DNA of 12,901 nt from Candidatus Aenigmatarchaeota archaeon (GTDB lineage: Archaea; Aenigmatarchaeota; Aenigmatarchaeia; PWEA01): positions 1 through 12,901 of the forward strand of contig PWFY01000091.1 in the NCBI GenBank assembly GCA_003554235.1, read 5' to 3'. Below the pieces are notes generated by a model, which had not been told where the DNA came from, did not search any database, and saw only the letters and a program-made list of their open reading frames with translations. Below are positions 3,794-9,135 of this stretch, piece after piece. Position 1 is the stretch's first letter, and each line of letters begins with the position of its first letter. The position numbers and the translations under genes were made by a program.

Positions 3794-3812
3794 CAAACCA
3801 CCTCCTTTGGGT

Positions 3813-4226
3813 CTACATACAGTCCTTTATCTTTCTTAATAAATCTTCGCCTTCTTCGTCTTTTAGCTCACTCTCGCTCCAGTCTATTTCTACATCGTCT
3901 CCATGGTACCTAGGTATTATGTGAAAATGAACATGGAATATCTGCTGCCCGGCCACCGGATTGTTAGACTGTAGGATGTTAAAACCATCGGCATCTGTAG
4001 CTTCTACTACGCCGTCGGCCACGTCCTGCACTACCTTTAGAGCATGCTTCAACTCATGTTCAGGTAGATCCAAAAGCTCGGGATAGTGTTCCTTTGGAAC
4101 CACCAAAGTATGTCCCCTGGAAGCTGGATTTACGTCAAGGAATGCCAGAAAGTGTTCATCTTCATATATCTTCCATACCGGCATCTCACCTTCCACCATC
4201 TTACAGAAAATACAGTCTTCGTTCAT
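3813..4226 (-). CDS. HIT-family nucleotide hydrolase/transferase
   Basis: A 137-residue histidine-triad protein of the Hint/Fhit-like superfamily, which hydrolyses or transfers nucleoside monophosphates from dinucleoside polyphosphates or aminoacyl/lysyl adenylates. The N-terminal CIFCKMVEGEMP zinc-type motif opens the protein. FLDVNPASRGHTLVVPKEHY follows at about 29-48, and the catalytic triad HVHFHIIP (H-x-H-x-H) is near 99-106, preceded by the usual GFNILQSNNPVAGQ strand-turn. An acidic tail, about 112-137, is typical of salt-adapted or simple variants. It is the first gene of a three-gene unit. A TATA-like TTATTTAAA lies about 30 bases before the ATG, so the transcript may be nearly leaderless, which fits the lack of a strong Shine-Dalgarno. 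The physiological substrate cannot be read from the sequence. Confidence 0.94.
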   Translation of the reverse strand: MNEDCIFCKMVEGEMPVWKIYEDEHFLAFLDVNPASRGHTLVVPKEHYPELLDLPEHELKHALKVVQDVADGVVEATDADGFNILQSNNPVAGQQIFHVHFHIIPRYHGDDVEIDWSESELKDEEGEDLLRKIKDCM

Positions 4227-4328: not shown

Positions 4329-7300
4329 GTGAGATGGATGAAGTTTTCTGAAGCAAAGGCTATTTTTTGTGGATTCTTTTTAATATCGGGTATAGTTTTA
4401 ACAATTCTCCTTCCAAAGTTCGTTCTAGCCGAAGGCTGCCACAACGATTTCGATCGGATTTACAATGAGGAATACCAAAAAAATGGAATTGAGGATACAA
4501 ACACAATAGACAATCTCGCAATGAAAGCCCCACAAACCAACAACAGCTTAGAAACTGATACATGTGAAATAGATTCCCAAAATACTGATGACGGAGTAGG
4601 GTTTTTCGCTGGTGGGAAGATAACAGGGGAGCCTGGCATCATGGAAAGTACATCAGTAGTAAGCTTTCCTTTAGATGGTAATGCATGGAGAAGCTTTGAT
4701 GGTAAAATAAATAACTGGGGATTTTGTCACCAAATGACAGGCAACTGGCATGATATAGACGAGTTCTGTGAATGTATGGGATATGAAGGTGCAGTTGCAG
4801 AAGGAGATGAGCCCTGTTATATATCGTCGGATCAAAGTCAGTACAGATGGACTGTTGATTGGGATAAGTCTGGTTGTGTGGAAGAGGGGGAAGATATGGG
4901 AAGAGGAGACGCGCTTACAAGGGTTAAATGTACTGATGAAAATATTATAGTCCATGAACTAAAAACAGAAATCGAGGGTGGCGGCATTGTTCACATAGAT
5001 GGTCGTCCTTTTTCACCTATAGTTTATGAAGACGGAAGTACTGCGACACTCGAAGCAGTAGCCCATGAGGATTGGGAGTTTGTCGAATGGACAGGAGATA
5101 TAGCGGAAGAGGAGTTAGAAGCATTCGCTACAACGGAAGAGAAAACCTGGGAAGTTCCTGATGGTGTGGAAGAAGTTGATGTGCTAGTTGTAGGAGGTGG
5201 GGGAGGAGGTGGTTTTCAAAAAGATTTCAACACTGCTGGAGCCGGGGGTGGAGGTGCAGGCGGCGTAGTACTTGCAGAAGGTTACGACGTAGACCCCGGT
5301 GAACAAATTGACATAAAGGTAGGGGAAGGTGGTGAAGGTGAGAAACAAAACACTGACTACGGTGAAGATGGTGAGAGTTCGTCCTTTGGATCGCTCGTTG
5401 CTTTGGGTGGTGGTGGTGGTGGAGCCGGACAAACAGAAGACGATGGATGGGGAGGTTACTGGCAGGCTGTAAAAGGTAATGATGGAGGTTCTGGCGGAGG
5501 TAGCAGAACCGAGGAAGAAGTAGTTCCTGGCGGTGAAGGGCTCCAACCCGGAACAAACGATGGGTTTGATGACTATGGAAACGATGGCGGTGATGGAAAA
5601 GGTGCCGGTGGAGACGAAGAGCCATATGATCAAGGTGCCGGAGGAGGTGGAGGAGCTGGTGAGGCCGGATACCCAAATCCCGATCCCGAGGGCGCCACAG
5701 GCGGTGATGGTGGCGAAGGCATGTGTTTTGAAGATATTTTTGGAGATGAATATGGTGATGATGGCTGTTTCGCTGGGGGCGGAGGCGGAGGAGCTGGTGA
5801 AAGTGATGAAAACTATGGTAAAGGAGGGTTAGGAGGTGGAGGCGACGGTGCTAACCACGTCGACACACCGGCTCAAGATGGTGAACCAAACACCGGAGGG
5901 GGAGGAGGTGGAGGAAGCAGTGATCCCGCCGCAACCGGCGGAGACGGAGGGTCAGGAATTGTTCTGGTTAGGTATGAAAAGGATGTCAACTCTACAAAAG
6001 AGAAAATAACCCTGACCATGGACCAGGATAGGGAAATCACTGCACACTTTGAGGAAGAGTTCGGAAAGATATACGACTGGTGCGACCTAGACGAGCTTAG
6101 GGACAACCTTTATGCGGACGCCGTGCTGATGAACGACCTGGATGAAACGACGGATGGCTACGGAGAGGAAGATTGTGGCTGGGACGAAGACAAGGGTTGG
6201 GAACCGATAGACGATTTTGAAGGAACCTTCGACGGTGATGGGTATGAAATTAAAGATTTGGTTATTGACAGGCCAAATGAGGAATTCGTTGGTTTGTTTG
6301 GTAATACCGAAGAAGGATCTGTAATTGAGAATATTGGCGTTGTTGACGCAGATATAATCGGCGAAAGACTCATGGGCATCTTAAGTGGTACACCTAGGGG
6401 CATAGTTCGCCATTCTTACACAAGTGGCATGATAGAATCCAGTCGAGATTACGGTGAAAGTAATGCAGGCGGCCTTGCCGGACAGCCCTACGGAGAAATA
6501 AAGGATACATACAGCTCCGCTGATGTCATCGGTCATAACAGGGTGGGTGGGTTAGTTGGTCAAAACTACGCCCAGATAGATAATTCTTATTCGGTTGGTG
6601 AAGTAACTGGTAATGATGATGTTGGTGGATTAGTCGGGTGGGATATTGGGGGTTACGGTGAAATTACGGACTCCTACTGGGACAACATAACCTCCGGTCA
6701 GGAGACCTCAAACGGAGGTAAAGGAAAATACACCTACGAGATGACGCTGGAGGATACATTCCAGGACTGGGACTTTACCGGCACCTGGCAGAGCAACGAG
6801 TGGGAAACATACCCCTGTTTGTACTGGCAGGACGAATGTCCTGTTGCTCCGGAGCAGAATCTGGCCGTGGAAGCAGAAGGGGAAGGTAAGGTGGAAGTCG
6901 AATGGTATGAAGGTGAAGATAAGGATGAGATGGTCGATGAAGAAGAAGACTTTGGTATCCTTGGTGGTATAGAAGTTAGCCTGGAAGCCGTCCCTGAAGA
7001 AGGTTACGAGTTCGTGGAGTGGTTTGAAACCCTCTGGTTTGAATGTCTGGAACATCAGGACGAAGATAAATGCGGGGATCAGGTCACTATACCCGGGAAT
7101 ATGGGAACGCACACTGAATATACGCTGGCCTTTTGGTTTGTCCAGGACGAAAAACCCGATGTTTGGCACTACCTGATGGATACAAGAGAAGAAGGAGCCG
7201 AATCGCCCTGGGAGGACTTCTGGGGCCCAGCCTACGATGGATCCGATATAAGCAATCTTGCAGGGGCGGATATCCCTGATACAAAATATGAAACCGGCAC

Positions 7301-8792
7301 TTGGAACCACCTGATCGTGACCAGTGACGGCTCAAATACTCACGCTTACCTTAATGGGGAACTCGAAGACACAGTAGGTAATGCAGAAGAGATGGATTTA
7401 GAAAACGAGTTCCGTATAGGGAATAGATTCTCACAAGATGAAACATGGATTGGGAAGATAGGTGACGTCCGTATATATGATAGGGCTCTCGATGAAGATG
7501 AGATCAACGACCTTTATGAAAACAAATATATGGAGCTAGGTGACGAGATGGCATGGTGGAGGATGAATGAAGGGGAAGGTAATACAATCAACGACTTCTC
7601 GGGTAACGGTAATCATGGATCAATAGACGGTGCAGAGTGGATAGTAGGTTCTCCAGAAGAGGAAGAGATAACCTTGGCGATGGATGGAAATAAGGAGGTT
7701 ACCGCTTTGTTTGAAGAGACTGTAAAACATGAACTTACTGTTGAGACGGATCCTAAGGAGGGTGGGAACGTTACTGTGGGATGGGAAGACGTGGATGGAG
7801 AAGATGTAGAGGAAGAAGTGGTAGAGAATGAAACCTTTGAGATTGTGGAAAGTACGGAGGTTGAACTTACTGCAGAATCTTCCGATGGCTGGGAGTTCGT
7901 TGAGTGGACAGGGGACAAAGAAGAGGATTTCCACGAAACGATAACCATAGAAATGGACGAAGACAAGGAGGTCACTACACACTTTGAGCCAGAAGAATAC
8001 GAACTGAAAGTAGAAGCCATGCCAGAACATGGTGGTAATATTACAGTGGAATGGGACGAGGAGGAATACGTAGTCTACGACGAAAAAAGTTTCAATATAG
8101 AGTATGGCACATGGGTGGAACTTGAAGCTGTAGAAGAGGAAGAATGGGAGTTTGTAAACTGGACAGGGGACAAGGAAACCGAAGATGAACATATTGAAGT
8201 TTTTATCAATGGGAACAAGAATTTGACAGCCAACTTCAACCCCAGACTTACACTGGACGTCAACAACGAACAAGGAGGAAATGTCACAGTTGACGGTATG
8301 CCACTGGGACCGCTTGGTTACCCCTACAGTGACTATTACAGTTACGGTTCTGAAATGGAACTCGAGGCTACGTCGGCAGACGGCTGGAACTTCAGCTTCT
8401 GGTCCGGAGACACCGAAGGCATCGAAGATAGAGAATCAAACAACACAAATATAACCATGGACGACAGCTACCATGTGACTGCCTACTTCGAAGCAGATCA
8501 TGTGATAAACGTAACGGTCCTTGGAAAAGGATATGTAGATGTGGATGGAGAAAAGGTACTGGATAAAAAAACGTTTTACTATGGCTACGGCGACATAGCC
8601 GAGTTGGAAGCCTTTCCTGAACACGGTTTTAGTTTAAGGGAATGGAGGGGCACCGAAGAAAGCGGAAGAGAAATAGAAATAACAGTTGATGAGGACATGG
8701 AAATTTATGCCATATTTACCATGGCCGACCACTGCAGATTGACAATTTGTGCCCCTGGAGGAATATGTGATGAGGTGACTGTGAGGTGCTAA
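4329..8792 (+). CDS. Giant acidic secreted surface protein with InlB-type repeats, Gly-rich, GLUG and LamG-like domains
   Basis: 1487 residues, very rich in Asp/Glu/Gly. Residues 1-34 form a signal peptide (hydrophobic AIFCGFFLISGIVLTILLP, cleavage likely after VLA34). Residues about 130-201 hold a Cys-rich segment (Cys133, 147, 149, 163, 183, 201). InlB-type repeat 1 runs 208-257 and resumes at 558-576; between them, 273-550, is a bacterial-type Gly-rich domain. GLUG-type repeats follow at about 640-800 (GGLVGQ, GGLVGW, NSYSVG). Repeat 2 runs 844-898 and resumes at 1112-1131 around a LamG-like domain (about 916-1108). Repeats 3-6 fill 1134-1465 and a Cys-rich stub ends the protein. No C-terminal membrane anchor is visible. 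The start may be GTG 4329 or in-frame ATG 4338, the latter with GTGAG just upstream. The pilin-like gene follows one base after the stop. An adhesive or surface role is inferred from the domains; the ligand is unknown. Confidence 0.9.
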   Translation: MRWMKFSEAKAIFCGFFLISGIVLTILLPKFVLAEGCHNDFDRIYNEEYQKNGIEDTNTIDNLAMKAPQTNNSLETDTCEIDSQNTDDGVGFFAGGKITGEPGIMESTSVVSFPLDGNAWRSFDGKINNWGFCHQMTGNWHDIDEFCECMGYEGAVAEGDEPCYISSDQSQYRWTVDWDKSGCVEEGEDMGRGDALTRVKCTDENIIVHELKTEIEGGGIVHIDGRPFSPIVYEDGSTATLEAVAHEDWEFVEWTGDIAEEELEAFATTEEKTWEVPDGVEEVDVLVVGGGGGGGFQKDFNTAGAGGGGAGGVVLAEGYDVDPGEQIDIKVGEGGEGEKQNTDYGEDGESSSFGSLVALGGGGGGAGQTEDDGWGGYWQAVKGNDGGSGGGSRTEEEVVPGGEGLQPGTNDGFDDYGNDGGDGKGAGGDEEPYDQGAGGGGGAGEAGYPNPDPEGATGGDGGEGMCFEDIFGDEYGDDGCFAGGGGGGAGESDENYGKGGLGGGGDGANHVDTPAQDGEPNTGGGGGGGSSDPAATGGDGGSGIVLVRYEKDVNSTKEKITLTMDQDREITAHFEEEFGKIYDWCDLDELRDNLYADAVLMNDLDETTDGYGEEDCGWDEDKGWEPIDDFEGTFDGDGYEIKDLVIDRPNEEFVGLFGNTEEGSVIENIGVVDADIIGERLMGILSGTPRGIVRHSYTSGMIESSRDYGESNAGGLAGQPYGEIKDTYSSADVIGHNRVGGLVGQNYAQIDNSYSVGEVTGNDDVGGLVGWDIGGYGEITDSYWDNITSGQETSNGGKGKYTYEMTLEDTFQDWDFTGTWQSNEWETYPCLYWQDECPVAPEQNLAVEAEGEGKVEVEWYEGEDKDEMVDEEEDFGILGGIEVSLEAVPEEGYEFVEWFETLWFECLEHQDEDKCGDQVTIPGNMGTHTEYTLAFWFVQDEKPDVWHYLMDTREEGAESPWEDFWGPAYDGSDISNLAGADIPDTKYETGTWNHLIVTSDGSNTHAYLNGELEDTVGNAEEMDLENEFRIGNRFSQDETWIGKIGDVRIYDRALDEDEINDLYENKYMELGDEMAWWRMNEGEGNTINDFSGNGNHGSIDGAEWIVGSPEEEEITLAMDGNKEVTALFEETVKHELTVETDPKEGGNVTVGWEDVDGEDVEEEVVENETFEIVESTEVELTAESSDGWEFVEWTGDKEEDFHETITIEMDEDKEVTTHFEPEEYELKVEAMPEHGGNITVEWDEEEYVVYDEKSFNIEYGTWVELEAVEEEEWEFVNWTGDKETEDEHIEVFINGNKNLTANFNPRLTLDVNNEQGGNVTVDGMPLGPLGYPYSDYYSYGSEMELEATSADGWNFSFWSGDTEGIEDRESNNTNITMDDSYHVTAYFEADHVINVTVLGKGYVDVDGEKVLDKKTFYYGYGDIAELEAFPEHGFSLREWRGTEESGREIEITVDEDMEIYAIFTMADHCRLTICAPGGICDEVTVRC
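5145..5978 (+). other. Gly-rich domain inserted in the first InlB-type repeat
   Basis: Residues about 273-550 of the surface protein. It opens with TWEVPDGVEEVDVLVVGGGG and closes with GGSGIVLVRYEK, the hallmark ends of the Gly-rich (collagen-poor, poly-Gly loop) domain seen in bacterial secreted proteins. Internal marks include YDVDPGEQIDIKVGEGG and SSSFGSLVALGGGGGG. The segment is built of poly-Gly loops alternating with acidic stretches. The GGN codon runs create long antisense reading frames that are not genes. Confidence 0.8.
6066..6749 (+). repeat. GLUG-type repeat region of the surface protein
   Basis: Residues about 580-807. Several copies of a roughly 26-30-residue unit are visible: VGLFGNTEEGSVIENIGVVDADI, then a diverged copy, AGGLAGQPYGEIKDTYSSADVIG, VGGLVGQNYAQIDNSYSVGEVTG and VGGLVGWDIGGYGEITDSYWD. 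The preceding FEGTFDGDGYEIKDLVI strand is the usual lead-in. GLUG repeats are expected to stack as a right-handed beta-helix in surface adhesins. Confidence 0.8.
7074..7652 (+). other. LamG/concanavalin-like domain, apparently circularly permuted, inside InlB-type repeat 2
   Basis: Residues about 916-1108. Strand motifs typical of LamG-like domains are present: TEYTLAFWF, TGTWNHLIVTSDGSNTHAYLNG, and IGKIGDVRIYDRALDEDEIN. The element that normally opens such a domain, an AWWRMNEGEGNTINDFSGNGNHG-like strand and turn, is at its C-terminal end (about 1075-1097) instead. These domains bind carbohydrate or protein in many secreted proteins; the ligand is not predictable. Confidence 0.7.
7728..8723 (+). 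repeat. Four tandem divergent InlB-type repeats
   Basis: Residues about 1134-1220, 1223-1304, 1306-1389 and 1391-1465 of the surface protein. Each begins with a strand such as ELTVETDPKEGGNVTV, passes through VELTAESSDGWEFVEWTGD and ends with ITIEMDEDKEVTTHFE or a variant. The copies have diverged in protein and more so in DNA, so they are old duplications rather than recent slippage products. Repeats like this form small beta-grasp modules that act as stalks in bacterial surface proteins. Confidence 0.85.
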
Positions 8793-8793
8793 T

Positions 8794-9135
8794 ATGAGGA
8801 AGGGTTTGTCTGTGGTCCTGGGTTTTGTTCTCTTAACAGTATTGGCTATTGTCTTAGTAACAGGTGTCATGATCTGGATGAGAACAACGGGACAAGAAGC
8901 AAGAGAAGGGGTTGATGAAAGATTTGAGGAGGAGGATGTAAAGTTCTATATAAGTAGAGTTAACCAGGACGGACCGGAGATAAACGCAACTATAAAAAAT
9001 ACTGGAAACTTTCCCTTGTCCTTGGAAGAACTACAGGCCTATTACGATGGTTCTCCAGAGGATTTTGAGCATATTGGAGGGGAAGTTCCTATTCCACCGG
9101 GTAGCTCGGCAAACATCTCGATAACGGTTAGTTAG
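8794..9135 (+). CDS. Archaeal type IV pilin-like / FlaG-like secreted subunit
   Basis: A 113-residue protein starting MRKGLSVVLGFVLLTVLAIV. The short basic leader ending Lys-Gly before a 25-residue hydrophobic helix is a class III (prepilin peptidase) signal, with cleavage predicted after Gly4. The helix is followed by an acidic linker and then a beta-rich domain (about 48-113) with the INATIKNTGNFPLSLEELQA and IPPGSSANISITV pattern found in archaeal pilin and CARDB-like sandwiches. Two N-glycosylation sequons are visible, Asn64-Ala-Thr and Asn107-Ile-Ser. GAGGTG (8783-8788), inside the last codons of the surface-protein gene, is a good Shine-Dalgarno five bases before the ATG, so the two genes are coupled. 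It may be a minor pilin or a membrane anchor partner of the large protein. The stop overlaps that of the convergent RFC gene by four bases. Confidence 0.82.
   Translation: MRKGLSVVLGFVLLTVLAIVLVTGVMIWMRTTGQEAREGVDERFEEEDVKFYISRVNQDGPEINATIKNTGNFPLSLEELQAYYDGSPEDFEHIGGEVPIPPGSSANISITVS

Follow-up and report, generated by a model that had tools for sequence, protein, structure and literature searches.

Why should a repeat of a surface protein break off before its last strands, and why should those strands appear in the chain only after a whole further domain? The question is raised by a gene on contig PWFY01000091.1 (assembly GCA_003554235.1) of a Candidatus Aenigmatarchaeota archaeon, of which the whole stretch analysed (12,901 nucleotides) is called here the window. 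The gene lies at window positions 4329 to 8792 on the forward strand, as do all its features given below, has a GTG start and codes for a product of 1487 amino acids; the public database entry of the same protein (P0001) starts 3 residues downstream and has 1484. The original prediction, made from the sequence alone, held that two InlB-type repeats of this protein are split at the same loop. This was confirmed, as complementary halves were found on either side of domain-sized loops. With a probability of about 0.6, this DPANN archaeon uses the protein as a fibrillar adhesin on its surface, with an InlB-type stalk in which two loops are replaced by recognition-type domains and the interrupted repeats act as split domains.

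The N-terminus resembles a signal peptide when judged by eye, and residues 1-205 gave no Pfam match up to E 1. This N-terminal region is followed, in order, by a half repeat, a glycine-rich domain, a half repeat, a GLUG domain, a half repeat, a LamG domain, a half repeat, four intact repeats and a cysteine tail. As a whole the protein belongs to Flg_new_2 (PF18998, the divergent InlB B-repeat), which it matches above the curated cut-off with 149 bits in 7 stretches; the other Pfam matches are Gly_rich_2 (residues 270-550), Laminin_G_3 (residues 916-1060) and GLUG. Taken as single stretches (cut-off 23.6 bits), repeats 3 to 5 score above the Flg_new_2 threshold, the N-terminal halves (21.2 and 19.6 bits) and repeat 6 (18.8 bits) score below it, and the C-terminal halves have no separate listing.

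A hidden Markov model (HMM) of the repeat was trained on 17 intact repeats, the split halves being excluded. The N-half of split repeat 1 (residues 211-257, window 4959-5099) was matched by this model from residue 211 to 265 (HMM 2-53, 25.3 bits), and its C-half, the last hairpin (residues 560-576, window 6006-6056), from residue 547 to 576 (HMM 40-69, 21.0 bits). The corresponding matches in split repeat 2 were residues 845-900 (HMM 2-44, 25.3 bits) for the N-half (residues 845-899, window 6861-7025) and residues 1110-1130 (HMM 49-69, 11.1 bits) for the last hairpin (residues 1114-1130, window 7668-7718). In 500 shuffles of both inserts the top score was 6.7 bits. The halves of repeat 1 share HMM positions 40-53 because insert residues beside the break are aligned too; their landmarks, FVEWTGD (251-257) and ITLTMDQDREITAHFE (560-575), do not overlap. 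Both had been placed exactly by the original prediction, as had YEFVEWF (893-899) and ITLAMDGNKEVTALFEE (1114-1130) in repeat 2. Complete repeats flanking the inserts, which would be at odds with a split, were looked for with the HMM, and none abuts either insert.

The loop concerned, counted from the W of FVEW to the residue that opens the last hairpin, has a length of 305 residues in split repeat 1 and 215 in split repeat 2; in 111 unsplit repeats it measures 7-17 residues, with a median of 11. These 111 are what remains of 113 rows (E 1e-4 or better, letters present at both loop ends) after removal of the two half-rows of the window; 106 come from the genus and 5 from four other genomes, and in 4 of them a contig end truncates the repeat, though not within the loop. 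Other insertions relative to the HMM are small: the first hairpin has no more than 19 extra residues, and one position in this loop no more than 8. Insert 1 thus delimited comprises residues 258-559 (302 amino acids) and insert 2 residues 900-1113 (214 amino acids). The sequence GAG TGG is common to both ends of insert 2 and was dismissed as too short to have a meaning.

That the same loop has taken up a domain on two occasions is therefore well supported, and a third case was found in the sister genome G004. There, a CarboxypepD_reg protein (L040) has a single repeat that is split at the same place, with halves at residues 502-554 (HMM 1-47, 43.5 bits) and 787-807 (HMM 48-68, 12.5 bits) and a loop of 242 residues. 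Its insert is LamG-like, of a different subtype and right at the Laminin_G_3 cut-off, so that the three cases have three different inserts in one loop and probably arose as separate events. A search of 156 genomes of the phylum (E 0.001), which is blind to splits with weaker halves, detected the repeat in 20 of them, namely in all 6 genomes of the genus and in 14 of the 150 outside it. In two candidates from other genera the Pfam match did not include the C-part; both were rejected, one being intact (L148) and the other having a loop of 61 residues with no domain (L147). Among the matches listed for public homologues, a set that includes the best 120 of 1392 matches of one search, 2 of 135 other proteins carry the repeat (P0010 and P0095). 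No domain-sized loop insert was seen among the repeat matches of these two, and the last match in P0010 is a C-part alone (HMM 32-67). None of a further 51 public proteins scored above 2.2 bits on the repeat HMM.

Several observations weigh against split repeats on a stalk. The C-half of repeat 2 scores weakly, and third-position G+C rises near residue 555 from 0.30-0.35 (window 4329-5993) to 0.46-0.55 (window 5994-8792), which makes gene-to-gene recombination possible and hints at a mosaic gene. The AlphaFold model of module 2 (residues 841-1135) has a mean predicted local distance difference test score (pLDDT) of 68.9 and a predicted template modelling score of 0.58, and its alignment includes 4 intact repeats, so that the model in part presupposes that the halves pair and is not an independent proof. 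In module 1 the halves are left unfolded, with block means of 37-48 for residues 208-257 and 28-39 at the C-end. Next to the RFC gene, G002, G004 and G005 have complete syntenic orthologues (504, 510 and 736 residues per frame) with neither insert, which makes the inserts dispensable for any role of the locus that is conserved; the G003 orthologue is cut by a contig end.

Structure prediction had originally been proposed as a check of whether the two halves pair, and its outcome was mixed. For module 2, strands were modelled in both halves with the help of the intact-repeat rows (block means 69-88 in the N-half and 73-82 in the C-half, C-half strands at model positions 273-277 and 282-290), and for module 1 most of the halves stayed below pLDDT 50, a low confidence due to the last hairpins of intact repeats being misplaced in alignment A8. 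No InlB-type entry was among the matches listed by the fold searches; the inserts filled the lists, and this absence counts neither for nor against the fold.

The G+C step, the weak C-half and the unfolded halves of module 1 are what would be expected if recombination between surface genes had left truncated half repeats at its junctions, without any joint module and with the inserts lying in line on the chain. This explanation appears unlikely, as each of the three N-halves is followed by exactly its missing C-half at the same loop, and as no two of the three inserts are of one kind. Moreover, the remaining partial matches that score more than 14 bits either stand at a contig start or end (L041, L051, L058, L062 and L066) or are divergent and span the loop (L011 and L047). 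Contig ends were ruled out as the origin of the half repeats in all three split cases.

The inserts themselves belong to families with recognition-type folds. The domain of insert 1 (residues 260-554, window 5106-5990) is a member of Gly_rich_2 (PF21722), the glycine-rich tail-fibre type, by its profile and by its modelled fold, which resembles phage tail-fibre and ALK glycine-rich domains. Glycine-rich tail-fibre adhesins of haloarchaeal viruses are implicated in setting host range (PMC8651126). A tblastn search for this comparison (cut-off E 1e-5, low-complexity regions filtered) gave no phage record. Sequence searches of the PDB were made with a repeat, the glycine-rich insert and alignment A3 and gave nothing below E 0.3 or, in one of them, below E 0.01.

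Insert 2 (window 7026-7667) is a member of Laminin_G_3 (PF13385) by its profile and its modelled lectin fold, which is of the LamG/pentraxin type; the structures matched by the model are to a large extent lectins, carbohydrate-binding modules (CBMs) and pentraxins. Its strand order is B then A (residues 913-1101), since the body (913-1064) comes before the normally-first strand, which is placed last (1075-1101). Pentraxins likewise finish on such a strand. The same changed order is present in the LamG domain of L044 (residues 3617-3804), the usual one in L071, L100 and L101. That a permuted LamG domain would be unique was ruled out by a strand-order scan of 73 proteins, in which, with counts blurred by fragments, A came first in 44, B came both first and last in 22, and B came first and A last in 7. 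Binding domains of clostridial neurotoxins also came up, in phmmer (E 0.26-0.96) and in Foldseek (E 3.8e-4 to 7.4e-4, query template modelling score 0.29-0.36), but they were listed amid lectins, pentraxins and sialidases and were put down to the common lectin fold. A search of genome contigs, whose set possibly left the window's own or near genomes outside, gave no relative of module 2.

The nesting might be genuine and yet architectural, the inserts lengthening or stiffening the surface layer without binding anything, and the many LamG and glycine-rich proteins that lack the repeat agree with this. Both folds serve recognition where they have been studied, as in haloarchaeal virus tail fibres (PMC8651126) and in the lectin, CBM and pentraxin matches, and we hold a purely architectural role to be quite improbable. 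We favour instead an adhesin in which InlB-type beta-grasp repeats and GLUG would build a stalk behind the putative signal peptide. In two repeats, a whole recognition-type domain would take the place of the loop before the last beta-hairpin; the chain would leave the stalk, fold a side domain with its ends close together and come back to complete the repeat, the halves of each pair folding as one module. Side domain 1, which is rich in glycine, would be of the tail-fibre-tip type that serves viruses in recognising their hosts, and side domain 2 a domain with a LamG/pentraxin-type lectin fold. Both would point outwards and might bind glycans or glycoproteins on partner or host cells, and the archaeon itself may be host-associated.

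Nesting within the genus also involves GLUG, which occupies residues 581-835 of the window protein (window 6069-6833, Pfam). In the genus loci scanned, the distance from the GLUG N-part to the next conserved block is 5-32 residues in 16 of 19 distinct cases (de-duplicated rows) and reaches 83 in L049 (G005), 139 in L047 (G004) and 202 in L044 (G003). The inserts in L044 (4819-5424), L047 (5831-6226, reverse strand) and L049 (3331-3573) gave no Pfam family over its cut-off when stretches of 202, 132 and 81 residues, respectively, were searched; by eye, two of the three look jelly-roll or discoidin-like. L044 also has one GLUG C-cap that is split by its LamG domain (residues 3569-3616, 8.1 bits, and 3808-3844, 48.5 bits), and a second GLUG with an undivided C-cap (2769-2837, 101.7 bits). 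In the same locus, an intact repeat stands directly upstream of a GLUG, at the position of split repeat 1, and the repeat end with the GLUG start matches window protein residues 552-658 at 51%; the best GLUG match is in L048 (52%), followed by an intact repeat. The nested GLUG domains, the virus-tail-type fold of insert 1 and the changed strand order of insert 2 go beyond the original prediction. A bolder and only tentative idea is that the InlB-type repeat loop and both GLUG ends are reusable sockets, genus-wide, for exchangeable recognition domains, including a virus-type glycine-rich receptor-binding domain adopted by the cell, and that a haloarchaeal partner is recognised by the same kind of tip as haloarchaeal tailed viruses use.

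The C-terminal part of the protein consists of intact repeats 3 (residues 1144-1220, window 7758-7988), 4 (1238-1304, window 8040-8240), 5 (1309-1388, window 8253-8492) and 6 (1394-1464, window 8508-8720), and of a cysteine tail (window 8733-8789) that is common to the three complete syntenic orthologues. The tail pattern C.I.ICGP...CDE.TV.C ends the window protein and frames L049, L059 and L073 (4 matches among the frames scanned) and is possibly an anchoring or cross-linking tag. The next frame (window 8794-9135), which has copies in L049 (5312-5656) and L041 (412-753), codes for a protein of 113-114 amino acids that has a single membrane stretch, at its N-terminus, and by eye resembles a pilin; the window copy gave no Pfam family over its cut-off. 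In the RFC small subunit, identity to four Candidatus Aenigmatarchaeota metagenome-assembled genomes is 84-88%; these are named T1Sed10 or B1Sed10, after samples of high-salinity soda lake sediment (PMC6146748). The genome of the window is 77% complete and belongs to the same genus as G002 to G005.

Split domains may flag candidate recognition domains of large DPANN surface proteins from sequence, as models did for RTX adhesins, and they give clean construct boundaries. A stalk repeat with a loop that tolerates domains of 200-300 residues would also lend itself naturally to use as a display scaffold. Should haloarchaeal surfaces be bound by the glycine-rich insert, virus and symbiont would have the same kind of recognition tip.

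Listings of the open-licence PMC literature, which covered permuted LamG, split or nested domains, InlB-type repeats and the surface proteins of aenigmarchaea and DPANN archaea, yielded no description of this case, nor did they show any InlB-type repeat whose loop holds an insert the size of a domain. The intact repeats are in one Pfam family, PF18998, with the InlB B repeat and the Flg_new stalk domains, Flg_new having been termed a stalk domain (PMC9210967). The InlB B repeat is a beta-grasp variant in which strand b3 and the next loop were unresolved in one chain (PMC8900821), and that loop probably corresponds to the one used for inserts here.

Nanohaloarchaea, too, are DPANN archaea from hypersaline sites and have several LamG proteins; these and related surface proteins were proposed to act in host contact (PMC10266531). 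What differs is the LamG domain of the window protein, with its nesting in a stalk repeat, which the available text of PMC10266531 does not mention, and its strand order B then A. Glycine-rich tail-fibre adhesins such as Pam3 gp24 and those of haloarchaeal hafunaviruses are trimeric fibre tips, whereas here the domain is nested in another domain of a cellular surface protein.

The closest parallel is with RTX adhesins, in which split domains with adjacent termini hold ligand-binding domains off the axis (AhLap, PMC12077191); FrhA and one from Aeromonas veronii (PMC10865825) are further adhesins of this group. The Pfam matches, taken up to E 1, include no RTX repeat family. As in RTX adhesins, a stalk-type domain is apparently broken by a whole domain of ligand-binding type and is then completed, several times per protein; at the level of sequence, an interrupted stalk domain that is later completed was indeed found. 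The RTX solenoid can also be a split domain in these adhesins, a part that is played here by GLUG. A modular presentation scaffold, as originally suggested, fits this split-domain logic (PMC12077191) and the recognition-type folds of both inserts, and display is the best reading of the protein. RTX adhesins are bacterial and have Ig-like or RTX beta-roll split domains, whereas the present protein is archaeal and of the InlB type: the split-domain principle is already known in bacteria, and no description of its archaeal InlB-type version came up in the literature searched.
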